The position numbers and the translations under genes are program-made. A stretch of 35,284 nucleotides of DNA from the IMG/VR virus record IMGVR_UViG_3300042324_000041, positions 1 to 35,284 of that record. One strand, 5' to 3'. The stretch comes from a virus. The notes below the pieces were generated by a model. The model worked only from the letters and a program-made list of their open reading frames with translations. It searched no databases and was not told where the DNA came from. How positions within the stretch are numbered: position 1 is the first letter of the stretch; each line of letters begins with the position of its first letter. Below are positions 1,272 through 33,409 of the stretch, piece after piece.

Positions 1272-3059
1272 TTATAGTGTTTTTAGTCCAGCCAAATAAT
1301 CTTCAATGTCTTTTAATTGGCTAGGTTTATATTGTATCACATTGCGAGAATCCATGTCAAATTGCTCCTCTGGAGTCTTTGGCCTATCCTTATAGGTATG
1401 GACTTCTATCTCAGTATTTATATCTTTTGGGGTATGTGATATTGCCCCAAATATTGCTCCACACACAGCATCAGCCAAGTCCTTTGACTTCTTGCGTGGG
1501 TGATCAACTCTGTCATTTTTCATAATCTTTAACTGGGTTAGTTCTTCAAACAAAAGTTCGATTGCTGGCATTACTAGCCTCTCTTCATAAACAAGCATTG
1601 CCATATCTTCATAATGTTTTTTAGCAACAGAAACAGTATCAGTTCTCATTCCAACCTGATTCAATTCATTCTGAATATCAAATGACTGCCAACGGTCAAA
1701 AGAAACTAGGCCAACATCAAACCCAAGTCTTCTAAGGTTTTGAATCCACTGCTTCACCTCTGAAAGATTAACGGGGCCTTCAATCTTTGGCTCCCACCAT
1801 GCTACTGCATCTACTACTACAATTGGTGCTACCTGTTCGTAGTTATTAATTACTTGGATATTTACCCATTTTTCTACATGGGCGATTGCTACCGCACACT
1901 TGTCATGCTTTTGTGCAAGGTCAGCGTGTACATAATATTTTTTAGTTGGATCTGGTTTAAATGACTCATCAAATCTTTTAAAAGCGTCTATTGGATTTCT
2001 TGTTGTCATACAAGATCTTACCTTATCGTGCTGCTTAAAGAATGCATCTGATGCAAATGTTGGTACACAAGCAAAGCGCATCATTGCATCTCCAAGGTCT
2101 GTCATGAATGCAATCTTAAAATCATCAATCTTTCTTGTTGGGTTTACTTCCCATGTTGGTCTCTTGAGTGCAAAGACCCCAGGATATTTATATGAAACTA
2201 TATGATCTTCATCCCAAGCGATATCAAATGTATTGTCTGCACTATCTTCTGGAAGCAATGGATTAATTACAAACTTATGTGTACGATCTATAACTTCTTT
2301 TTCAGAGATTACTGCATCATACTTTTCTGAAATAAAGTCTCCTGGATAACGTGGGAATGAAAGCAAAACGACTTTGCCAAGGTCAGGGAAACGGGAGTCA
2401 ACAGATCCACGGAAAGCCTTATATATATTATCTGCGGTCTTTCCTTGATCATTTCCTGTACCAACCTCGGATGCAAAACCTGAAATCTCATCAAGAACTG
2501 CAAGCAAAAGATTTAAACCCTCGTGTGACTCACGTTCTGAGTGTCCAGAGTAGACAGTAATAGATTTATTAAACTCAATTGAATCTGCTTTAGCATAGTA
2601 TTTTCCAGCAAACCATGGTGACTTTTCAATTTTTGTTTTAAAACCTTTAAAGAAAACGTTCTTTGCCTGTTGTGCGTTAATAGCAACGTTGATTAAGTCA
2701 ATAGCATCTCCAGAAGGCTTGCCAAAGTATTTTGCTGGGTCTTTTAAGCATAGTAACTTATATACAATGTATGAACATGCTACGGTTGATGTGAAGTCTT
2801 TTCCAGATCCCTTGCCAAGTTGCAGAATGATTTCGTTCTTTGTGTACTTGTCGTAGTATTGGGATCCTTCTTCTTCCCCCATTAATTCTATCAAGTCTTC
2901 TTTTCTATATATCTGACTCATTGCCTCAACAATGTCATACTGGATATCAGACAAGCCAGGCTGGCCAAGGAAGGCATCACCCTCAACAAATGTTTTGGCG
3001 TCTACTGGAATCTCTTCAAAGTTATTATCTTTGAGGGCTTCTAAAAATTCATCATACAT
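1272..3059 (-). CDS. terL: Terminase large subunit (ATPase and nuclease)
   Basis: 595 residues, the usual length. The protein drives packaging of DNA into the prohead and cuts concatemers. The ATPase half has a P-loop at residues 82-88 (GKGSGKD), with Asp where Ser/Thr is usual, and a Walker B near residue 190 (AVLDEIS). The RNase H-like nuclease half shows three acidic positions: YVHADLA near 378, VSFDRW near 455 and KSKDLADAV near 525. The start overlaps the end of the small subunit gene by 8 nt, implying translational coupling. The gene lies after the replication genes rather than next to portal and capsid genes, which are absent here. Confidence 0.93.
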   Translation of the reverse strand: MYDEFLEALKDNNFEEIPVDAKTFVEGDAFLGQPGLSDIQYDIVEAMSQIYRKEDLIELMGEEEGSQYYDKYTKNEIILQLGKGSGKDFTSTVACSYIVYKLLCLKDPAKYFGKPSGDAIDLINVAINAQQAKNVFFKGFKTKIEKSPWFAGKYYAKADSIEFNKSITVYSGHSERESHEGLNLLLAVLDEISGFASEVGTGNDQGKTADNIYKAFRGSVDSRFPDLGKVVLLSFPRYPGDFISEKYDAVISEKEVIDRTHKFVINPLLPEDSADNTFDIAWDEDHIVSYKYPGVFALKRPTWEVNPTRKIDDFKIAFMTDLGDAMMRFACVPTFASDAFFKQHDKVRSCMTTRNPIDAFKRFDESFKPDPTKKYYVHADLAQKHDKCAVAIAHVEKWVNIQVINNYEQVAPIVVVDAVAWWEPKIEGPVNLSEVKQWIQNLRRLGFDVGLVSFDRWQSFDIQNELNQVGMRTDTVSVAKKHYEDMAMLVYEERLVMPAIELLFEELTQLKIMKNDRVDHPRKKSKDLADAVCGAIFGAISHTPKDINTEIEVHTYKDRPKTPEEQFDMDSRNVIQYKPSQLKDIEDYLAGLKTL

Positions 3060-3585
3060 CTTGAACCACAGTTATAACTTCATCTTTTTTAGCAATAGAT
3101 GAAAGTCTTTTCATAATCTCGTCACGAACTTGTGGATACTCTGACGCAATATCTTTTAGGATTGACATTAATACCATCTGTCTATTTTCAATCTCAATCA
3201 TTTCATCAGCAAGTTCTTTATTCTCAAGAAGCCCTGCTTTCTGAAGCATGTCAATTCTTTTTGATTCAATGTCCATGACCAGTTTAATTGCCTGAGTTTT
3301 TGCTCCAAGGTTATTGGTCATTGATGCCTCATCAATTACTTCGTAAGACTTTGATATAAGTTTGCTGTAGTGTGTATCGGCAGCAGCAAGTGCTTCTTTA
3401 GCACGTGCTCTAATTGCATCGTTTGCAGATGCCATAACTTTCCACTCATTAATTAATGTCACAACACGTGTGCGTGGAATATCCAGTTGTTTAGAAATTA
3501 CTGTTGGATCATTCCCCTTTAGGTACTCTTCAACAACAAGGTTAACTTGATCAAGATGTTTAACTAGATCTTCTTCAGTCGACAT
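3052..3585 (-). CDS. terS: Terminase small subunit (DNA recognition)
   Basis: 177 residues. The N-terminal part (about 15-50) is a helix-turn-helix (EEYLKGNDPTVISKQLDIP followed by RTRVVTLINEW). The middle is a long helical, charged region suited to ring oligomerisation, typical of small terminase proteins that recognise the packaging site. The identity rests on the direct overlap with the large terminase gene and on this architecture. The start has a GGGAG Shine-Dalgarno sequence 8 nt upstream and overlaps the preceding gene by 11 nt. Confidence 0.8.
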   Translation of the reverse strand: MSTEEDLVKHLDQVNLVVEEYLKGNDPTVISKQLDIPRTRVVTLINEWKVMASANDAIRARAKEALAAADTHYSKLISKSYEVIDEASMTNNLGAKTQAIKLVMDIESKRIDMLQKAGLLENKELADEMIEIENRQMVLMSILKDIASEYPQVRDEIMKRLSSIAKKDEVITVVQDV

Positions 3586-3847
3586 GATTTAACTCCCTTG
3601 CTATCTTTAATAGTATAAGGTAACCAATCAAATCATCAATATCGTTATCGCCAATGAATGCTCCGCCTCTGGTAATCCTAGAAAGTTTGTCATCAATTCG
3701 AACATGTAACTGTTCAATATTATCAGAGATAGAAAAAATCCGAACTGGATTTAGCGCTGAGTCTCCGTAAGATTTATTTTTTGTAATAAGCATATCCTTG
3801 ATCTCATCACAAACCTGACCAATAGTAAACTGTGTTTCAGAACTCAT
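3575..3847 (-). CDS. DUF1599/MazG-like small protein
   Basis: 90 residues, all-helical in appearance. The pattern KNKSYGDSALNP, then VRIDDKLSRI, then DDLIGYLILLKIA matches my memory of the phage DUF1599 family (nucleotide modification associated domain 1), relatives of MazG-type NTP pyrophosphohydrolases. If so it may act on a nucleotide pool or a modified nucleotide. A GAGGAG ribosome-binding site lies 8 nt before the ATG, which is inside the end of the upstream miniprotein gene (11-nt overlap). The family assignment is from motif memory. Enzyme activity is inferred, not shown. Confidence 0.6.
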   Translation of the reverse strand: MSSETQFTIGQVCDEIKDMLITKNKSYGDSALNPVRIFSISDNIEQLHVRIDDKLSRITRGGAFIGDNDIDDLIGYLILLKIARELNHVD

Positions 3848-3974
3848 CGTCTATCTCCTCTTCTAGATCCCAATCAAAAATTTCTGGTAGGTTCTTAAGT
3901 GTTAAAAGTGTATAGGCCAGTCCAGCAGACATGACTAATGATAAAATAACTAATGCCTTACTTGTATTTTTCAT
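3837..3974 (-). CDS. 45-residue single-pass membrane miniprotein
   Basis: The start is taken at the ATG at 3974, not further upstream, because GAGGAAA precedes it and it overlaps the stop of the HTH gene as ATGA. The product has a basic N-terminus (MKNTSKA), one hydrophobic segment of about 20 residues (LVILSLVMSAGLAYTLLTL) and a strongly acidic C-terminus (DWDLEEEIDDEF), so it is probably a type I or III single-pass inner-membrane protein. A holin-like or host-takeover role is possible, but no family is recognised. Its place between regulatory and terminase genes gives no clear clue. Confidence 0.65.
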   Translation of the reverse strand: MKNTSKALVILSLVMSAGLAYTLLTLKNLPEIFDWDLEEEIDDEF

Positions 3975-4126
3975 CGTTTTGATTTCCTCAATCCAAATTT
4001 TGCAAGGTAGACGTAGATAGTTTCTATGCTCACTCCACACTCCTTTGCAATCTCTTCTGGTGTCTTCTTATCCATAACATATCTCTTACGCATAAAAGAC
4101 TCACTTGTATATAGTTTAGCAGCCAT
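3971..4126 (-). CDS. 51-residue helix-turn-helix protein
   Basis: A short gene that reads MAAKLYTSESFMRKRYVMDK and continues with TPEEIAKECGVSIETIYVYL, a clear helix-turn-helix with a second, recognition helix ending in KFGLRKSKR. This looks like the small homeodomain-like DNA-binding proteins common in phages. It begins 4 nt after the stop of the previous gene, and its stop overlaps the next ATG (ATGA). The Shine-Dalgarno signal is weak, so an internal ATG (4093 or 4075) is possible; all options keep the HTH. It probably regulates transcription or assists terminase, but the target is unknown. Confidence 0.7.
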   Translation of the reverse strand: MAAKLYTSESFMRKRYVMDKKTPEEIAKECGVSIETIYVYLAKFGLRKSKR

Positions 4127-4888: not shown

Positions 4889-5163
4889 TCTTTTGCCATC
4901 CGCTTAATTTCTTTTAAAACCTTTTTTACATCTGATGGATTAATGTTACACTCAAAACAAATTGGCTCATCGTTGTATATCGATAATTCAAGTTGACAAT
5001 TTTTACATAAACGTTTTTTGCCTATGCGTTTTTGTCTTCTTGCATGAAGATATCTTGATGCAATCTTTTGCTTTGTTGCAGCCTCTCGACATATTGTAGA
5101 ACAATATACCTGATAGGATACGGTAGCCTTAAATTGGTTGTCGCACCAATTACAATTCTTCAT
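4885..5163 (-). CDS. Double zinc-finger protein
   Basis: The start is the ATG at 5163, which has GGAG 7 nt upstream and overlaps the preceding nuclease gene by 14 nt. The product is 92 residues with two zinc-binding clusters: CNWC at the N-terminus paired with CSTIC near residue 23-27, and CKNC paired with CFEC further on. Between them is a basic helix (RYLHARRQKRIGKKR) suited to nucleic-acid binding. Its position between the Cas4-like and RuvC-like nucleases suggests a DNA-binding helper or an HNH-type remnant, but no catalytic histidines are evident. Confidence 0.65.
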   Translation of the reverse strand: MKNCNWCDNQFKATVSYQVYCSTICREAATKQKIASRYLHARRQKRIGKKRLCKNCQLELSIYNDEPICFECNINPSDVKKVLKEIKRMAKE

Positions 5164-5965
5164 CCAATGACTCCAAGGATTTGACTTTAAGATCCCCTTC
5201 GCCTGCTGACGCACACGCCTTTTGTACTGGGCATGACTTGCATATCTTGGAATTTGCTCTATAGTTTTTCTTAGGAAGAGTTCTATCTACCCAAGCCCTA
5301 CGAACTTCTCTCATCCAATCAAATGCCTGGTCTACCCACCGACGGTAATGATCGTTCACTGTTACGGGAAGAACTAGCAACTCGTGATTATTTTTATTTT
5401 CATAAATAAGAACACCCTTTGATTTCTTAAGGATCTTCATATAAATAAGTAATTGAATTAAGTGTCCAGTCTTTGGCTTTCGCTTTGCTTTGCGATATTC
5501 AAATCCCTCACTCATCATTGTTTTAATTTCTCCAACAATTTGCTCATCGCCCCAGTTAAGCATGGCATCTCCATATCCAAAGATAGGAGGATCCTGATTA
5601 ACAATCTTAAACTCTGTTGTTGGATTATCATTTGCATCACGGAATATTTCCGCAATACCAGAAGCCATCATTGCATCTTGAATTCTATCATGAGACTTTG
5701 TACCAGCAGTCATGTTGGCAACACCATAAGCATCATTGTTATCTTCAAATGTTTGACCATCAAAGGCGAGATACCAGTATCTAGGACACTCTCCGTGCCC
5801 ATAGGCAATCGTTGATGGAGCAAAGGTCTTCTTTTGTGTATGCTTAGGTCCACGTCCTTCAAGGTATCCAGACTGGATCTTTTGAACCATTTCCGTTGTA
5901 TCAAAACTGTCCGCTGGAAGTGGTTCTGGTTTAACCATTATTGATTTTAGTAAATTTTTTGTCAT
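5150..5965 (-). CDS. Cas4/RecB-family Fe-S nuclease
   Basis: 271 residues with the full PD-(D/E)XK set of this family: H92 (GTKSHDR), D133 (GYGDAML), E146-x-K148 (GEIKT) and a Q171/Y175 motif (IQLLIYM). Four cysteines, C60 (GECPRYW) and C242/C245/C251 (ICKSCPVQKAC), are placed as in the 4Fe-4S cluster of Cas4 and AddB. It is predicted to degrade or resect DNA ends as part of recombination. There is no CRISPR array or other cas gene in the window, so it is a stand-alone phage nuclease. A promoter candidate lies at 5994-6002. Confidence 0.83.
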   Translation of the reverse strand: MTKNLLKSIMVKPEPLPADSFDTTEMVQKIQSGYLEGRGPKHTQKKTFAPSTIAYGHGECPRYWYLAFDGQTFEDNNDAYGVANMTAGTKSHDRIQDAMMASGIAEIFRDANDNPTTEFKIVNQDPPIFGYGDAMLNWGDEQIVGEIKTMMSEGFEYRKAKRKPKTGHLIQLLIYMKILKKSKGVLIYENKNNHELLVLPVTVNDHYRRWVDQAFDWMREVRRAWVDRTLPKKNYRANSKICKSCPVQKACASAGEGDLKVKSLESLDEEL

Positions 5966-6006: not shown

Positions 6007-6312
6007 TTATCTAGTTGTGTACTTTAATGCAGAAACAAGATTGTTAATTGCTTCGGCTGCGGTGTAGTATAAGTTTTTCTTTCCACGATCTGACTTATCT
6101 ACATTGGCCATCCATGTAGCCTTTAGTGCCATTTTTGCTGCGATTGCTTGAAGTCTAACTATCTCAACAGTCGCAACATTTAGTGGGATATCTGGTTTAA
6201 GGATAACCTTGGCAATAAAAGTTAAAGCAGTTGTAAGTTCTTCGTCATTCATGTAGTCTGCAATTTCTGACAGACCGTTTATCATATCTATTGTTGTATT
6301 GTTTTGTTCCAT
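6007..6312 (-). CDS. Hypothetical helical protein
   Basis: The start is set at the ATG at 6312, just after the stop of the upstream dioxygenase, with GGGA as a ribosome-binding site; a longer frame to 6366 would overlap that gene. The 101-residue product is almost wholly helical, with a conserved-looking C-terminal half (LQAIAAKMALKATWMAN then KKNLYYTAAEAINNLVSAL). It has no catalytic motif. Lying between dioxygenases and the Cas4-like nuclease, it could be a recombination accessory or adaptor, but I do not recognise the family. Confidence 0.65.
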   Translation of the reverse strand: MEQNNTTIDMINGLSEIADYMNDEELTTALTFIAKVILKPDIPLNVATVEIVRLQAIAAKMALKATWMANVDKSDRGKKNLYYTAAEAINNLVSALKYTTR

Positions 6313-6314
6313 TT

Positions 6315-7103
6315 TTATCCCATCGATTTCTTTGATATTCCGTCTCTTAATCCTTCTTCTTCCCAAAGTTTAAACGCTGCCTGCATATCTGGTCTTGACT
6401 GAAGTTCATCAAGATATCTTTTTCTTACGTCTGGGCTATGCTCTGGGTCTATTGGATTTTTATCTCCAGTAAATCTATAACTATTTGTTGGACAATAGTC
6501 CATACTGATAATCTCACAGAACTCTCCCTCTTTAAATTTACGCTTTGGTCTCCAGTGTATCTGATTCACTGCGCTAAAGACAATAGTCTGACCACCACTG
6601 AGTGAATACTTAGTAAAATTACTTGTATCGTTCCAGTTGCTTACATATAGGTCCCACTCAATGTTTGTGTCTGGGCAATAGTTTATTGTTACAAGATTTT
6701 CATCTGCATCAAGATGTGGTGGTAGCGCTGGAGAATTATCTCCGTATCCATACTTTAAGTTATAGTCAATATAATTCCAATGGCATAAGGCTATGTCTCC
6801 ATTATAAAGTGGCTTAGCAATTTCGTCCAAACGCCTTTCACAGTCTTCTGGCATATCAAACTCAATTAAAGTTCTTGACATATTCTTTGCTATCTTTGGC
6901 TGAAACCTACTTCTAAATTCAGAAGTTCTAATATACCCATCTTCGATCCTGTCCCCAATAATAAATGGTTCAATTTCACGATTAGTTTCAATTAGATCTC
7001 TAATTTTTTTATCTTGATCTGATGTAAAAAGGTTGTCTATATAAAAAGGAAGTGGCTGATTATATTTCTCAAACCCCGTAAGGTATTTGTGTAACTCAGC
7101 CAT
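6315..7103 (-). CDS. 2OG-Fe(II) dioxygenase, paralogue 3
   Basis: 262 residues, the longest of three tandem paralogues. The double-stranded beta-helix iron triad is visible as H130-x-D132 (PPHLDAD) and H183 (NQIHWRPKRKF). The basic residues after the distal histidine are the likely 2-oxoglutarate anchor. The opening IDNLFTSDQDKKIRDLIE and the segment DYNLKYGYG match paralogue 1. It also has a C-terminal extension of about 55 residues not found in the other two. The start overlaps the previous stop as TAATG. The substrate is unknown: protein, nucleic acid or small molecule are all open. Confidence 0.8.
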   Translation of the reverse strand: MAELHKYLTGFEKYNQPLPFYIDNLFTSDQDKKIRDLIETNREIEPFIIGDRIEDGYIRTSEFRSRFQPKIAKNMSRTLIEFDMPEDCERRLDEIAKPLYNGDIALCHWNYIDYNLKYGYGDNSPALPPHLDADENLVTINYCPDTNIEWDLYVSNWNDTSNFTKYSLSGGQTIVFSAVNQIHWRPKRKFKEGEFCEIISMDYCPTNSYRFTGDKNPIDPEHSPDVRKRYLDELQSRPDMQAAFKLWEEEGLRDGISKKSMG

Positions 7104-7687
7104 TACTGTCCCTCATATATTTTAATAAAGTGCTTTGCCTTTTCGTTCATCTCGGCATTAACTTCTGCACCCTTTGGCTTTGCATCAGTTTTTCTTAAGT
7201 GAAAAAAGATCATATCAACAAAGTCTTCGCTAGAGAATATTTTTTTAGTTCTCCAATGAATCTGGTGCGTTCCAGAAAATGTCAAAGCCTGATTATCCTC
7301 CAAGGCATACTCACGCTCTTCAACTACTAAGGGCCAAGAAGTATTGGATTTCATTTGGTAGTCAAATGTAAACCTAGGCTCTTTGAATGTTTCATCGTAG
7401 TGTGGGGAAAGAAATGGTGCGCCAATTGATCCATCTTCATTTACAATATTCGTATATCTTGCAAATTGATACTCAGATATCATCAAGCCAGTTTCTCCAG
7501 AAATGTTTTCACAATACTTTATTACTTTTCTTTCAACTCCTTCTGGCAATTTAAAATCAGAAATTTTTTGATTAAATCTTTTCATTACATACTGTTGAGA
7601 GGGAGTCTCAAGCATTTTATATATTTCTTGAATTTCTTGCTCAGTTAAAACATTGTCAACTATCTCATTTGCTTCATCGTATTTCAT
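7103..7687 (-). CDS. 2OG-Fe(II) dioxygenase, paralogue 2
   Basis: 194 residues. The iron-binding triad is H96-x-D98 (SPHYDET) and H144 (HQIHWRTKK), followed by a strand ending in MIFFHL. The N-terminus (VDNVLTEQEIQEIYKMLE) aligns with both neighbours, so the three arose by duplication but have diverged strongly. The middle strands differ, which suggests a different substrate pocket. It starts at ATGA overlapping the first paralogue's stop, with AGGAG upstream, so it is co-translated with it. Confidence 0.8.
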   Translation of the reverse strand: MKYDEANEIVDNVLTEQEIQEIYKMLETPSQQYVMKRFNQKISDFKLPEGVERKVIKYCENISGETGLMISEYQFARYTNIVNEDGSIGAPFLSPHYDETFKEPRFTFDYQMKSNTSWPLVVEEREYALEDNQALTFSGTHQIHWRTKKIFSSEDFVDMIFFHLRKTDAKPKGAEVNAEMNEKAKHFIKIYEGQ

Positions 7688-8334
7688 ATTTTTTCTCCTA
7701 TGTCTCGTCTAAAATCTCTAATTTCTTGTTCAAGTTTTTTATCATCAATAACTTTTGGAGAATTTGGAGTAAACATTTCAAAGAATAAAACCTTTACAAA
7801 ATCTCCTTCGTTCCATTTTCTAATTGTTCTCCAGTGATAATCCTGTCTTGGATAAAGCATTAAGATTCCATTATCTGGTATTGTGTAAAGGTCTTTATTG
7901 CTTCCGACCTGCCAAGAAATGTTTGAGTCGAGTTGATATGTTAAAACAACACCTGCTCCTCCTGTATGGGTTATCTCTCCGTTCCTGATTGGGTCCCGAT
8001 CCTTATGTACCTCAAGGATTGGCTGACCATACTTTAAATTATATTCTGCATATGTAACACTTATAAGTCTTTCAATTTTTAAATCTAATTGACAATTTTC
8101 TTTTGCTAAACTTACAACCTTATTAACAATATGCGATGGCAGTTGAAGTTCATTTATGTCAAGTCTGCCAAGGTTATTTCTCTTTATTCTTATAATTTTT
8201 TTCTCATGCCAATTACTATCTACGGCGTCATCCCACTCAACAATCTCACGGGTAGCAAGTTCTTTATCTATTGCCTCTTGAATTTCTTTAATTTCATCTG
8301 AGGTAAATACATTATCGATCTGATTATTTCTCAT
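7684..8334 (-). CDS. 2OG-Fe(II) dioxygenase, paralogue 1
   Basis: 216 residues from the ATG at 8334. That start is chosen because it follows the upstream stop and stands 6 nt from a TATAAT box; the frame could extend to 8358 but without a ribosome-binding site. The triad is H110-x-D112 (LEVHKDRD) and H167 (QDYHWRTIRKW), and R172 may bind 2-oxoglutarate. EYNLKYG near residue 97 is shared with paralogue 3. It is the first gene of the dioxygenase block and may be made from a leaderless mRNA. Similar phage proteins are usually annotated only as 2OG-Fe(II) oxygenases. Confidence 0.8.
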   Translation of the reverse strand: MRNNQIDNVFTSDEIKEIQEAIDKELATREIVEWDDAVDSNWHEKKIIRIKRNNLGRLDINELQLPSHIVNKVVSLAKENCQLDLKIERLISVTYAEYNLKYGQPILEVHKDRDPIRNGEITHTGGAGVVLTYQLDSNISWQVGSNKDLYTIPDNGILMLYPRQDYHWRTIRKWNEGDFVKVLFFEMFTPNSPKVIDDKKLEQEIRDFRRDIGEKI

Positions 8335-8346
8335 AATTATATTATA
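8335..8346 (-). promoter_or_regulatory. Candidate leaderless promoter for the dioxygenase block
   Basis: TATAAT (8341-8346) overlaps the stop codon of the nuclease gene and is separated from the ATG at 8334 by exactly 6 nt, so transcription would begin at or near the A of ATG. No Shine-Dalgarno sequence is present for this gene. There is no TGN extension and the -35 is poor, so this is weaker than the other candidates. Confidence 0.4.
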
Positions 8347-8632
8347 CACCATCCACAATCTGCTCTAATATACTCATCTCAATTACTGCAAGTCTTACTT
8401 TGGCATTGCCCTCTCCAATAATAACAATAATTGCTGGATCATTGCCATTCTTAATGGCATCTGTTGTTGCCTTTGCCCATACCGCTTTATTTAATGTAAA
8501 AGATTTTCCAACCTCTTTAAAATCTACAGTAAAGTTTTCCCAGGAGGCATCACCTTTATGGGTTCCTCGACCAGAATTCTTGTGCTGCTTGGCACCTATT
8601 CTTTTACTTTCACTCTTCTCCGTCAAAGTCAC
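8342..8632 (-). CDS. Small PDDEXK nuclease, Holliday-junction-resolvase-like
   Basis: About 96 residues from a GTG at 8632; a TTG at 8650 or 8626 is also possible, and none has a strong ribosome-binding site. The pattern is that of a minimal PD-(D/E)XK resolvase: a GSGRG-like loop (NSGRGTHKGDAS, Asp 28), then D37-x-K39 (FTVDFKEV), then a helix and a PAIIVII strand. It follows the RecA-like gene and a zinc miniprotein, so it probably acts on recombination intermediates. With the RuvC-like gene, it gives the phage two candidate resolvases. Confidence 0.6.
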   Translation of the reverse strand: MTLTEKSESKRIGAKQHKNSGRGTHKGDASWENFTVDFKEVGKSFTLNKAVWAKATTDAIKNGNDPAIIVIIGEGNAKVRLAVIEMSILEQIVDGV

Positions 8633-8786
8633 TCTTCTTTCTTCTTCCAAGATACACTGTTGTTAAGTGCTTATCTTTACACATCCAAGTTAATGTCTTT
8701 GTTTCAGCATAACATCTTAGCGTTGGAACAATTACTTTGCAGGTATGGCAAACCCACTGTCCAGAATAAACTGTATACGAAGCCAT
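8610..8786 (-). CDS. 58-residue zinc-ribbon miniprotein
   Basis: An open frame beginning MASYTVYSGQWVCHTCKVIV and ending in KKSDFDGEE fills the gap between the RecA-like and nuclease genes. Four possible metal ligands are C13 and C16 (CHTC), C25, and C36 with H40 (CKDKH), a plausible zinc ribbon. It overlaps the start of the nuclease gene by about 23 nt, a common arrangement here. No strong Shine-Dalgarno sequence is seen. The role is unknown; DNA binding or a recombinase adaptor fits the neighbourhood. Confidence 0.6.
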   Translation of the reverse strand: MASYTVYSGQWVCHTCKVIVPTLRCYAETKTLTWMCKDKHLTTVYLGRRKKSDFDGEE

Positions 8787-30800: not shown

Positions 30801-33409
30801 CCAACTCCAGATGTTTTTGATGTTGCTAAGTCTGCAAGCCTTTGCAGTTCTTGTGGATCTCTTATTGGGGCGCCTGGCGCCTGACCATGAGCAAATACAA
30901 GATTCTCTCCGTTGAACGTTGTTGCAGAGGTTCCCTTTGGTCTATTTCTTGCTACGCCTTCTTGTTCAAGAATGTTTTTTAATGTTTCCCCAGATAACTT
31001 TTTAAATCCATCTCCTGCTGCTCTTGCTTCATCTTCAAGTCTTTGCAATACACGAGATACTCCTTCAATGTCTTTGCTGAACTTAGATAGTTCTGAAATT
31101 AATGCAAGATTTGCGCTTTGTGGTGTTGCTCTATTTGGTATTGCATAACTTCTGCCACCAAAAGAAATATTTGATCCATCTGCACCAATACCATCTCTAC
31201 CAGTTGCATATCCTGGAACAGAATCATTTCCAATTGCTCTTAGTAGTGGTCCATACTTATCAGTGTTTTCTTTTGATACAACAGTCTCTCCTGGTTCAAG
31301 CATGGCTGGGACTTTATCGCCAGTACCAGTACCTGGAACGCTGAATACACCCTCTGCATACTTTCTTGGAGCAAGACCTGATGTTGCGCCCATCGCACCA
31401 GGGGCTGCATTAAATAATCCTGGGGATGACATTGCAAGTGCTCTTGCCTGTGATGCTGCATTTCCATATGCTGCTGCCAAGGCATTTGCTGCTCCTGCTT
31501 CAACATTAAATGTTTCAATTAATTTTTGATGTGATGTATGAAGTGCGTTAGACTGTGCAAGGCTTTCAATCTGTTGCTGAGTCATATAGTCAAAGCCTGC
31601 ACCAAGGACGTTGCTTTGTCCATTAAGTTTTGCCATTCCTCCACGGAGCATTGCAAAGAACTTGATTACGTTTGCAGTTCCGTTAGCAAGCAAACCAAAA
31701 GCCATGAGTGCAACTGGTGCCAAACCTCCAACCACTCCAACAATAGTTGTTATGATTTTCTTTGTTCCATCACTTAGGTTATTAAACTTTGCTAATATAT
31801 CTCCAACAAATTTTACAATAGGTGTTGCAGCCTCAAGGAATGCCTTACCCAAAGGCATCAATTGAACCTTCATATCTTCAATTGCCTTTTGGAATTTCTT
31901 TCCAGTTGCATTTTCAATCTTTGATGTTTCTCGCTCTGCCAGGATTGCTAACTCTTCCATAGAGGCGCCTGCCAAACCTAGTGCTCTAGAAGCCTGACTA
32001 CCATCTTTTGTTATGTTCTGGAATAATGTTGATAGACGGGCAAACTGGAACTTACCAAACATCTGCTCAATTGCTCTAGCACGGTTGAGTGGATCTAGTG
32101 TATCTAATGCTCTTGCAAATCCTACTACGGTTCCCTTTATGTCCCCCGCATTATTATTTACAATTCCCTTGATATTAATACCAAGCCCAGCGAGCATCTC
32201 TGCTGCTTTCTTGGAAGGGTTAATCATAGATGCAAGACCAGATTTAAGTGCGTTAGCACCTTCTGATGCGTTGATGCCACCTTCCTTCATTGCTGTTAGG
32301 AAGAACGCAAGATCTTCAACAGATCCTCCAAGTTGCTTGATTACTGGGGCTGCTTTTGGAATTGCAATTGTTAAATCTTCAATAGATAGAACAGTTTGGT
32401 TTTCTACAGCGTTGAGAAAGTTAATCTTGGTTGCTAATTGTTCAGAAGATATTCCAAAAGCATTTTGCAAAGATATAGTAGTCTCTAGGGCTTGTTGCTG
32501 ATCAACCTGACCAAGAACAGCAAGCCTAGTTGCCTGTGTTACTTGAGCGGTAAGTGCTGCGCCAGCATAGCCTGCTGCTGCTGCATCTGCAGCCATGTTC
32601 ATTGTATCTTTTACTGCAACACCATACTTGGTAAACTCACCAGCGAGTCTTTTAATTCCATCAACAGCCTTATCTGTTTCTGCAACGCTAGTTGCCATAT
32701 CCCCGTATACACGCTGGAATTTTACAGTTGCTTCTTCCATTTCTCTAAATGTTTTAGCAGCAAAGGATCCAAGCATTGTAAGAGGAATTGTTAAACCAAC
32801 CATTAACTGACGGCCTGCCCACTGAGTATTCTTACCAAAATTCAATAGTTGTGTTGAACCCTGCTTGAGTAGTTGGTTGAGGAACTGCTGTCTTTGTGCA
32901 GCCATCTGAACACGTGTTGCATAATCCGTATAAGCGCCATTGGTCATTTGCAGATGCTTTGGCATGACCTGAAGCGTCTTTACTAATTGACCATTAGCAT
33001 TTGTTAATTGGACATATTGACTTTGAAGTGTCTTTACTCTATCCTTGCTTGCACGTTGAAGGATTTCCTTCTCTTGAGCAAAGAAGTTTTTTAAGACATT
33101 GCTGTTTAATGATGTGGCTGCTGCGGTGTATCTAAAATATTGTTTAAGGCTTAACTGGTTTTTTTCTAGCGCACTGGTGAAGGCTGCAGTGGAAGTGTGG
33201 ACATCCTTTTGGCTAGCAATGAACTTTCCAGTTTGATTAATCGACTGGATGAGTTGGCTGTTTAAACCCTTTTGTGCATTTTCAGCAGCAATGTTTCCTT
33301 GTGTTAAGGATTGGTTAAACTTGCTTAGACCAGCCTGAAGCCTTCTTAATTCTGAAAGAGCCGTGGCCGTATCAAAATGTATGCCTATATTAGCATTTAC
33401 ATCAGACAC
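24830..33409 (-). CDS. Tape measure protein, very long
   Basis: 2859 residues. It sets tail length and helps DNA ejection. The TP901-type core lies at about 190-490 (REMEEATVKFQRVYGD, AADAAAAGYAG, GINASEGANALKSGL). Hydrophobic segments occur near 545-590 and 1330-1393. The motif PAML(E/S)PGE occurs twice, near 700 and near 2783, and an SPSK...GDGL motif lies near 1085. Long coiled coils fill about 2430-2650. At about 1.5 angstroms per residue, a fully helical protein would mean a tail of some 400 nm, so globular insertions are likely. The start is a GTG with AGAGGTGG 8 nt upstream. The stop overlaps the next ATG. Confidence 0.93.
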   Translation of the reverse strand: MSDVNANIGIHFDTATALSELRRLQAGLSKFNQSLTQGNIAAENAQKGLNSQLIQSINQTGKFIASQKDVHTSTAAFTSALEKNQLSLKQYFRYTAAATSLNSNVLKNFFAQEKEILQRASKDRVKTLQSQYVQLTNANGQLVKTLQVMPKHLQMTNGAYTDYATRVQMAAQRQQFLNQLLKQGSTQLLNFGKNTQWAGRQLMVGLTIPLTMLGSFAAKTFREMEEATVKFQRVYGDMATSVAETDKAVDGIKRLAGEFTKYGVAVKDTMNMAADAAAAGYAGAALTAQVTQATRLAVLGQVDQQQALETTISLQNAFGISSEQLATKINFLNAVENQTVLSIEDLTIAIPKAAPVIKQLGGSVEDLAFFLTAMKEGGINASEGANALKSGLASMINPSKKAAEMLAGLGINIKGIVNNNAGDIKGTVVGFARALDTLDPLNRARAIEQMFGKFQFARLSTLFQNITKDGSQASRALGLAGASMEELAILAERETSKIENATGKKFQKAIEDMKVQLMPLGKAFLEAATPIVKFVGDILAKFNNLSDGTKKIITTIVGVVGGLAPVALMAFGLLANGTANVIKFFAMLRGGMAKLNGQSNVLGAGFDYMTQQQIESLAQSNALHTSHQKLIETFNVEAGAANALAAAYGNAASQARALAMSSPGLFNAAPGAMGATSGLAPRKYAEGVFSVPGTGTGDKVPAMLEPGETVVSKENTDKYGPLLRAIGNDSVPGYATGRDGIGADGSNISFGGRSYAIPNRATPQSANLALISELSKFSKDIEGVSRVLQRLEDEARAAGDGFKKLSGETLKNILEQEGVARNRPKGTSATTFNGENLVFAHGQAPGAPIRDPQELQRLADLATSKTSGVGKHLQSSADAARAGDPNGYVRQFSNFGFMLPEKANKGQMSPTDLASRFSGEDMSITMAPMYDQYARSMGMSLQEALNDPAIASQMHADMQVFAGRISSEVSKIPTEFVNDPEFYAAVEQAQSQLGDSVSGMMKQAIADAKSTSVVGTFGGAENRGSEGQRISLAAKETALRSELGASSSVKPYRKRNPEFVKASTEISDALDKDLTRAEKEIAKTASPSKRTKKLGQDIGDGLSQGLASKTKDVSAQSDKLKNAAKIDTDNKEFYDDIDTPDMRDQRQVLKSLDRRRRSGKGSISSGSSSDRIDKSSATLTLEVDKLSKATGDSLEAQRRHQDNIVTASDLAEATANSSQQIANAADQTANAQQTSSMLADQISKKDREILAEKERELAALRAKISSSASQSQNLDNRLTKEQALKEASGYAREDGKVFIDPGTGDPMDKKTYNKMKRGMRREKVGKFSGKAAGGLGMATMVAGTMGAPPAVTGALGAASTVASIAPALAGMGPVGWAVAGLAAVGGGAYLLNKHFEGAAIATAKFVTATSATSDLMKKIGQETGLVGASEIMNKRRGDGLLSGYNEAARKGTMEGEKFMGSATGKELTATYTKNANENGSEVAAQQFAMQLAAAVADGTMSADLASQTAYQLGVNLKDSSISMKVDGQLRNLIGANGEDLTRDPLTVRTRLAVVAGGRSDQVVQGLNEALAKGNSGRTEAAQLAASGANAIEMAQMQADGMARYYEDQVKSLTAQRAATTNKERQLELDNQIKAVQDQQIAGMEKMNRLVAAQVLRQEGYLRDEIIGDYTGTAKEDAFFDASKADVKAKYKGTAYEASAQRVLNLGARADEDKSFGSVAAGRVFEGKIQMLMASGQMNPQQVETMMKIFNGNLASMDVALNVGIKKQGATKVAELTSLLSGMKNKTTAQNIVVNMVRKSPAEFDRVGKALALLSASDGLEIDMSAYIDTVGLPGLEKLAAKLDLIEAMKSPIEKQAIIDFGKDTGTNMQGIIDNWTYFSNLKDPVQKEAIQTYTALHNTLISFENEDARRAWAAKLAEQEALGFGAKGSKEYTTAYTTKFNTLTSGTLNDPAAAAKTANAMVVAKYGVDPVVASKAAGKATDTGSGTKPADPYADLLKRLKEVRLASINAEGGIKALNKALLAAKKGGIGDAYKGIKEQMQDKGKNSQYMDFIMGLDPKEQAKFMRTAKAGTGKNKGKAIDPFTGKVIKDGKVGDVVFSKNAQQVEAGLNKAITGDFIVAQKAVLKNLNEQEIVTKKLAALGMSNSEIQQVLSDEAMTTVIATGKITDKELATNIALEKQRVAREKINELINVGKTAIEEQSNNTKIPAVLEFFAKNGPAMSPKALNSLISDPKSLAGAIAAMETYGTDAEKAKEQVEAIAKGLEAVQANSTIKIALEYANSDLKGKATKGLEAAQKIMNVRKTAYSNMSINELRKAQTSDNTALGGKASWNVGEAGYQAAVKNGVDPSAGMMGKSLASIQKQRASLAQAIGVATAKTTALESQLTTAQNKLSKDLETNAKKYESLIKSQESIIKTKQDFIKKNFEDPAKALGVESNKISNDLSIMAHSADEINKKYDAQAEALANVQRINENIIRQQQQQLGLADALSSGDIAAAAKAAQDMRAADASNYAGGVSSAMDQSRNNEIKNLKNDSGQSQEQLQERQYQISQELFKLETDPARLAAEKAIEEAQAQIVVYQEAQVAAAEKLQSDFDTINATIQTQLADQKTILDTLMQQDAQLALEEISAQAVVDQIMALDDSSGHTLEMWEEIVAKMEEGEPLSEAYAVAMEAAADSALNNKNSWASVLDTMNKIPKSLYTKHVYDEIHNITNYITNYVTTVAVAAKTGGKSDGGTADSNTGSANTSKTAGGKWAPYAMASGGMVPRYFAQGGFNMIPIGTDTIPAMLSPGEFVVSKFAVDNFGVDKLRSINTGNTDLGSVYNYNLSVNVKSDANPNDIAQTIIEQIRQVDNQRIRSNRL

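Follow-up and report, generated by a model that had tools for sequence, protein, structure and literature searches.

Multi-copy sets of 2-oxoglutarate (2OG)-Fe(II) oxygenases are already known in phages. The T4-like cyanophage S-SCSM1 has 24 such genes, sorted into four Pfam families, where most T4-like cyanophages have 1–5 (PMC9602691, excerpts), and Phold finds many phage proteins that resemble human EGLN3 (PMC12774648, excerpts). In this study, we have analyzed three adjacent genes, A, B and C, in a DNA of 35,284 nucleotides from an uncultured aquatic phage (positions 1 to 35,284 of the IMG/VR record IMGVR_UViG_3300042324_000041), hereafter the window. A sequence-only reading of this DNA had taken them for three neighboring, diverged paralogues of 2OG-Fe(II) dioxygenases, each with an intact HxD...H motif, and both this description and the residues assigned to each protein are correct. 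As in S-SCSM1, many diverged 2OG oxygenases can be encoded in a single genome of the window's group, but the family described here has no Pfam match, occurs in Stanwilliamsviridae relatives and is collinear at one insertion site. As far as the literature searched goes, such a family without Pfam match, its collinear cassette at one site, the fusions and apparent allele exchange of its members, and the reassignment of phage 'ferrochelatases' are new.

The predicted dioxygenase family and its insertion site

The proteins A, B and C are almost certainly Fe(II)/2OG dioxygenases, their enzymatic activity being predicted from sequence and modeled structure. The three are mutual tblastn matches (E about 1e-7 to 1e-10) and the family profile, run over the whole record, finds three places, exactly A, B and C; their kinship is therefore not due to chance. 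No Pfam family is assigned to any of them (best E 0.15), with no match to Tet_JBP (PF12851), AlkB or ferrochelatase at E 1, nor to the P4H-like 2OG-FeII_Oxy_3 family (PF13640), which reaches an hhalign probability of only 0.8% against the B alignment. The PF13640 enzymes encoded in related genomes share the HxD...H motif and the superfamily fold with the A/B/C family, whereas the sequence profiles do not match significantly. NCBIfam gave nothing above cut-off and searches of PDB sequences with the family no significant match. In PHROGs, hmmscan relates A (E 0.003) and B (E 0.002) to phrog_2954, labeled 'ferrochelatase', B also to one family of unassigned function, and C to none at 0.01.

AlphaFold2 models of A and B, built on the family alignments with a predicted local distance difference test score of 88 and 95.5, respectively, match 2OG oxygenases in the PDB and are predicted to adopt the double-stranded β-helix fold of this class, in line with the earlier assignment. 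For A, Foldseek E values go down to 4e-7, and the best VIA match is a Burkholderia oxygenase (6n1f_D; Z 13.6, 2.4 Å over 161 residues), with SnoN (13.0), PHD2 (12.5) and Pseudomonas putida P4H (12.4) close behind. For B, VIA gives SnoN (15.6), 6n1f (15.5), AlkB (13.9) and PHD2 (13.7), and the Foldseek PDB list is led by ALKBH2/3, with ALKBH2 first. The HxD and HxR motifs are present in 115 of 116 unique family members, the remaining one being cut by the contig end before the distal site; the exception to this conservation is the second domain of two fused proteins of 400 aa, which has lost HxD...H. In the alignments of A and B, the Arg that is invariant lies at His+2.

Searched with exact peptide patterns, IMG/VR yielded 64 loci through A, 13 through B and 11 through C. 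After repeats were removed, the family profile finds 192 open reading frames in 65 of 66 sequences (the window plus 65 loci), the one without a match (L067) holding 38 residues only; many of the viral contigs are near-duplicates, and these counts are not independent. The record IMGVR_UViG_3300042460_000058 (L066/L071/L079), left out of the 66 by de-duplication, has C and B whole by tblastn and A cut by the contig end. Among 48 loci in which RecA and the gene following A are both present, 4 have two copies, 31 three, 9 four and 4 five, and thus two to five copies are the rule where an A-type gene is present; since the searches that found these loci used A, B or C, they are uninformative on absence. 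Gene order is kept, with A last or followed by a further type, D. A is the most conserved of the three among the carriers (median identity 81%) and C has the lowest median identity to its relatives. In a tree of 111 of the 116 rows, computed with a long-branch warning, clade supports are 100/100 for D, 100/97 for A with two outliers, 100/97 for the C core and 97/71 for B, so the types seem to predate the split of these phages, B less certainly. Natural fusions hint that neighboring products work together: a protein of 408 aa at the start of record G007 consists of two intact family domains, and the 400-aa proteins, from L010 and L082, of an intact domain followed by the domain without motif.

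The sequence-only reading had named lack of conservation of the trio in related phages as a refuting result, and this is largely what we observe. An idea of a fixed conserved array, first drawn from the loci fetched through A, B or C, was rejected when relatives were retrieved through RecA and Cas4 instead (best 80 loci each, of more than 590 RecA matches, with 10 contig repeats dropped by name). In the 129 contigs that carry RecA and then Cas4, a set limited to those most similar to the window in RecA or Cas4, the stretch between the two genes holds no copy in 87, one in 24, two in 1, three in 12 and four in 5. The gap measures 780–822 bp when empty, 1379–1547 bp with one copy and 2772–2925 bp with three. 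All 24 loci with a single copy have it in one and the same position, between the resolvase and phrog_9818 genes, and its nearest type is A in 19 (at 23–29% identity only), B in 4 and C in 1. Rather than being a fixed trait, the trio is thus an accessory cassette with a single insertion site, and it is unlikely to carry out a step on which all phages of this group depend. Since carriers and non-carriers of otherwise similar genomes can be compared, the cassette, together with its natural fusions, is a good system for substrate finding.

Where present, the genes are under purifying selection. Over 12 pairs of close relatives, the ratio of nonsynonymous to synonymous divergence (dN/dS) is 0.01–0.12 for A (11 pairs), 0.06–0.13 for B (11 pairs) and 0.10–0.27 for C (12 pairs); positive selection on whole genes was rejected, as all values are below 1. 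The idea that the genes are functionless duplicates, either decaying or selfish, which the wide variation in presence and copy number and the motif lost in one domain of two fused proteins might suggest, is disfavored by these values, well below 1 in every pair computed, and by the motif kept nearly throughout the family; we regard it as scarcely credible. Alleles of B and C appear to be often exchanged, judging from their high and mosaic synonymous divergence (dS), which often lies far above that of flanking genes. Between the window and L009, dS is 0.26 for DnaE, 0.32 for RecA, 0.38 for Cas4, 0.48 for A, 1.09 for C and 1.72 for B, and between the window and L010 it is 0.17 for C but 1.57 for B. 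This reading is weakened by the saturation of dS above 1 and by a RuvC dS that is also high with L011, and some pairs (window–L080 for B and C, L010–L011 for B) are without excess.

Phage proteins named ferrochelatase

The relationship to phrog_2954 bears on a published viral metabolic gene. In its excerpts, PMC9599517 describes the pelagiphage ferrochelatase as always adjoining a 2OG oxygenase and reads it as inserting iron into heme, and PMC11561400 lists 'Ferrochelatase (phrog2954)' as a seasonally enriched viral metabolic gene, enriched together with phrog61. On profile evidence, phrog_2954 is homologous to the A/B/C family. Two proteins of Synechococcus phage S-SM1 named ferrochelatase match the family profile, and among viral predicted structures compared with B an S-SM1 'Ferrochelatase' ranks sixth (E 5e-7, template modeling score about 0.5), behind five uncharacterized phage proteins. 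We compared 12 proteins of this kind, encoded by 11 cyanophages and pelagiphages (11 named ferrochelatase, and one, of S-RSM4, hypothetical). Invariant H, D, W, H and R residues follow one order throughout, each protein has HxD...HxR, and none of the 12 matches Pfam ferrochelatase at E 0.1. The hhalign comparison of their alignment gives a probability of 97.9% with B (E 4.5e-13) and 97.95% with A, whereas Cas4, as control, gives about 0.1% with either family (0.57 being the E value in one run). PF13640 reaches 47% with the 'ferrochelatases'. In ACG-2014f, a protein of this name (L130:2965-4053) is a natural fusion of a phrog_2954 domain and a PF13640 oxygenase domain. The phrog_2954 proteins at L087:4256-5372 and in L126–L135 bear the 2OG-Fe(II) signature.

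At E 1e-5 the two S-SM1 proteins matched 147 and 156 phage records. Among the matches listed (the best 60 of each), most are named ferrochelatase and some hypothetical, and the copies of S-SCSM1 and S-CREM1 are already named 2OG oxygenase. By these sequence comparisons the name is probably a misnomer in most of the listed matches and in at least two papers. If phrog_2954 is itself a 2OG oxygenase, its co-occurrence with other 2OG oxygenases is simply explained, and the reassignment bears on the published ecology of the viral 'ferrochelatase'. A literature search on misannotation of phage ferrochelatases found no prior phage report, only a diplomonad study.

The phrog_2954 proteins (from S-SM1, S-PM2, HTVC008M and HTVC023P, among Kyanoviridae and pelagiphages) share HxD, W and HxR with the window's family, and several of their genes adjoin other 2OG oxygenase genes. 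They differ in sequence, with a best blast match of 28% identity over 58% of B, and in arrangement: the regions read have one or two copies beside oxygenases of other families, whereas the window's group has three or four paralogues of one family. In GTDB we found 46 bacterial loci with phrog_2954 relatives, many of which may be phage-derived; the 100 neighboring open reading frames, scanned as a set, include 22 matches to PF13640 and 12 to PF13759, which may overlap. This context shows company with other oxygenases, not a substrate.

Candidate substrates

We favor, at slightly less than an even chance, protein side chains as the substrates, that is, protein hydroxylation. In such a scheme C, B and A would be made from one operon, starting at a leaderless promoter before C; each enzyme would bind Fe(II) through HxD...H and, with O2, hydroxylate a substrate of its own while converting 2OG to succinate and CO2. 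Each paralogue would have one or several targets among the side chains of virion or host proteins, and the need for the modification would vary by host. Neighboring products may form hetero-dimers, proposed because neighbors are fused in some relatives. The sequence-only reading had considered modification of a host or virion protein beside a DNA or nucleotide oxidation pathway; we favor the former.

Several results count for a protein substrate. Three prolyl hydroxylases (PHD2, P4H and P3H1) and OGFOD1 are among the fold matches. Of the 11 cultured-phage regions read, 4 (HTVC023P, HTVC008M, S-SM2 and S-RSM4) have tail, neck, head or baseplate genes within a short distance. Between G001, a record of 112 kb with the window's genes at 99–100% identity, and G010, the most divergent genes are structural, tail-fiber-like, head protease and proline-rich protein genes together with C and B, a pattern that is consistent with a role in host interaction but does not prove it. 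The accessory nature of the cassette likewise fits a host-dependent role, leaving our estimate for protein hydroxylation unchanged. On the other side, support for any substrate class is indirect, and the matches of the predicted structures cannot tell protein, DNA and small-molecule oxygenases apart, ALKBH2 being the best Foldseek match for B. The other 7 of the 11 cultured-phage regions have no gene annotated as structural, and some have replication genes; the window's own cassette sits in a replication and recombination module and is missing in most relatives. The basic residue that binds 2OG in prolyl hydroxylases lies at about His+9 to +11, and the 2OG contact of the invariant Arg, at His+2, is therefore unproven.

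A collagen-like substrate was rejected, as a Gly-X-Y search of three genomes gave short runs only, of up to 39 residues. A proline-rich protein is encoded near the terminase in three genomes (G001:80082-82784, 900 aa; G002:484-2088, 534 aa; G003:80434-81912, 492 aa); that of G001 has a sub-threshold extensin-like Pfam match and 73% identity to its G010 counterpart over the first 515 residues. No link was found in the three genomes between this protein of 492–900 aa and the cassette.

Oxidation of DNA, RNA or nucleotides by AlkB-, TET- or JBP-like enzymes, repairing or masking the phage genome, is unlikely but deserves weight, as the cassette lies between the resolvase/RecA/DnaE block and Cas4/RuvC, ALKBH2/3 head the Foldseek list for B, and some cyanophage homologues are near genes for ribonucleotide reductase, a helicase, or a DNA methylase and clamp loader. 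Neither PF00303 nor PF00145 is found in any of 17 records tied to A-carrying loci, many of them fragments; the usual routes to 5-hydroxymethyluracil and 5-hydroxymethylcytosine are thus not seen, and DNA hypermodification by known routes was rejected. The missing Pfam matches to Tet_JBP and AlkB also argue against nucleic acid, as does, weakly, the acidic isoelectric point of the family (median 5.09, 0 of 113 above 7), which is uninformative on DNA binding since SSB, RecA and DnaE of the same phage are likewise acidic. A similarly low probability is given to the tailoring of sugars, lipids or small molecules, for example a glycan of the virion or host surface, in concert with glycosyltransferases, methyltransferases and a carbamoyltransferase of the same genome. 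In its favor, the best match of B by VIA is SnoN, which acts as an oxygenase in nogalamycin biosynthesis, and a fourth family copy has an APS-kinase/CTP-transferase-like gene as its neighbor. The close record G001 encodes a carbamoyltransferase, a glycosyltransferase-like protein, two Methyltransf_24 proteins and PF13640 oxygenases; this cluster is about 10–28 kb away from the trio, which counts against a link, and the G010 record ends before the corresponding region. The stretch in question (G001:83313-101392; L106/L107) also has a tetrapyrrole-methylase-like gene, and three of its genes belong to PF13640; it may be a module for the tailoring of glycans or small molecules.

Action on host metabolism or regulators, either by lowering 2OG or by hydroxylating host translation factors, we consider very unlikely. 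P. putida P4H in complex with EF-Tu (4iw3) is among the fold matches of A, and the excerpts of PMC9602691 offer the guess that a cyanophage 2OG-Fe(II) oxygenase sways host nitrogen metabolism through 2OG levels, but if the purpose were only to lower 2OG, several diverged paralogues, each kept separately, would presumably not be needed. Returning to protein hydroxylation, a more elaborate version, decidedly unlikely in its full form, would be a modular hydroxylase complex in which the paralogues, some degenerate or fused, act as hetero-oligomers around A, hydroxylating multiple sites on phage or host proteins; gain or loss of the cassette, added copies and swaps of B and C alleles would retune the modification to the host, and the same machinery would be present in ocean phages as 'ferrochelatase'. 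If this were true, the reported viral heme gene would be part of a post-translational modification system.

Gene layout and genomic context

The genes are arranged compactly at the insertion site (Table 1).

Table 1. Features of the cassette and its edges in the window
Feature	Position	Strand	Remarks
Gene A, predicted 2OG-Fe(II) dioxygenase	6315..7103	minus	262 aa; H130/D132/H183, R185
Gene B, predicted 2OG-Fe(II) dioxygenase	7103..7687	minus	194 aa; H96/D98/H144, R146
Gene C, predicted 2OG-Fe(II) dioxygenase	7684..8334	minus	216 aa from ATG; H110/D112/H167
TATAAT, candidate leaderless promoter	8341..8346	minus	-12 to -7 of gene C ATG
Holliday junction resolvase-like gene, phrog_2002	8342..8650	minus	upstream edge of insertion
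phrog_9818 gene, function unassigned	6007..6312	minus	downstream edge of insertion
Cas4-like nuclease	5150-5965		beyond phrog_9818 gene

The translational coupling proposed earlier is borne out by overlaps of 4 nt between C and B (ATGA) and of 1 nt between B and A (TAATG), and 2 nt separate the end of A from the ATG of the next gene. Gene C might alternatively start upstream, at a TTG at 8358. The single leaderless promoter also proposed is plausible, and the C-B-A operon probably starts there, before C: TATAAT stands at -12 of its ATG. A scan for two-hexamer sigma-70 promoters found fewer sites than in shuffles. In G001, G002 and G003, which share orthologues, TATAAT peaks exactly at -12 of the predicted start, in 16 of 376 genes of at least 90 aa, against 0–5 at other scanned positions; this sharp peak suggests leaderless transcripts across the phage group. 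All 8 close relatives examined have the hexamer before C. Its bases overlap, however, with the stop codon of the gene upstream. Rfam gave no match at the gathering threshold. The DUF1599-like neighbor that had been invoked for nucleotide modification is unsupported, since the proteins at 3575-3847 and 3837-4040 have no Pfam match at E 0.1; the protein at 3052-3585 has a sub-threshold helix-turn-helix match only.

The 2OG content of these phages is very uneven, from 0 to 14 genes per record. In the 17 records tied to A-carrying loci, the family profile finds 3–7 places each, and PF13640 1–7 places in 16. Their sums are 10 in G001, 12 in G002, 13 in G003, 12 in G005 and 12 in G007 (100–123 kb), counting one PF13640 match below the curated cut-off in each of G003 and G007, and two family matches in G007 that form one fused gene. 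In 14 further records, picked for length, the lowest sum is 0, in five records of up to 105 kb, and the highest is 14, in G017. In G017, the record of L237 (115,665 bases), the cassette site is empty and 12 PF13640 and 2 family matches lie elsewhere, several of them clustered at the record ends.

Among the matches listed, the closest terminase and DnaE are those of Streptomyces phages, at about 54% and 52–55% identity, and an actinobacterial host is likely, judging from these relatives. The Stanwilliamsviridae phages Circinus and Blueeyedbeauty have the same DnaE-RecA-resolvase-Cas4-RuvC order as the window's group but, unlike the window, no 2OG genes at the site and no PF13640 or family match genome-wide. 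In G001, a PF13640 oxygenase gene (32819-33349) directly follows a ribonucleotide reductase gene.

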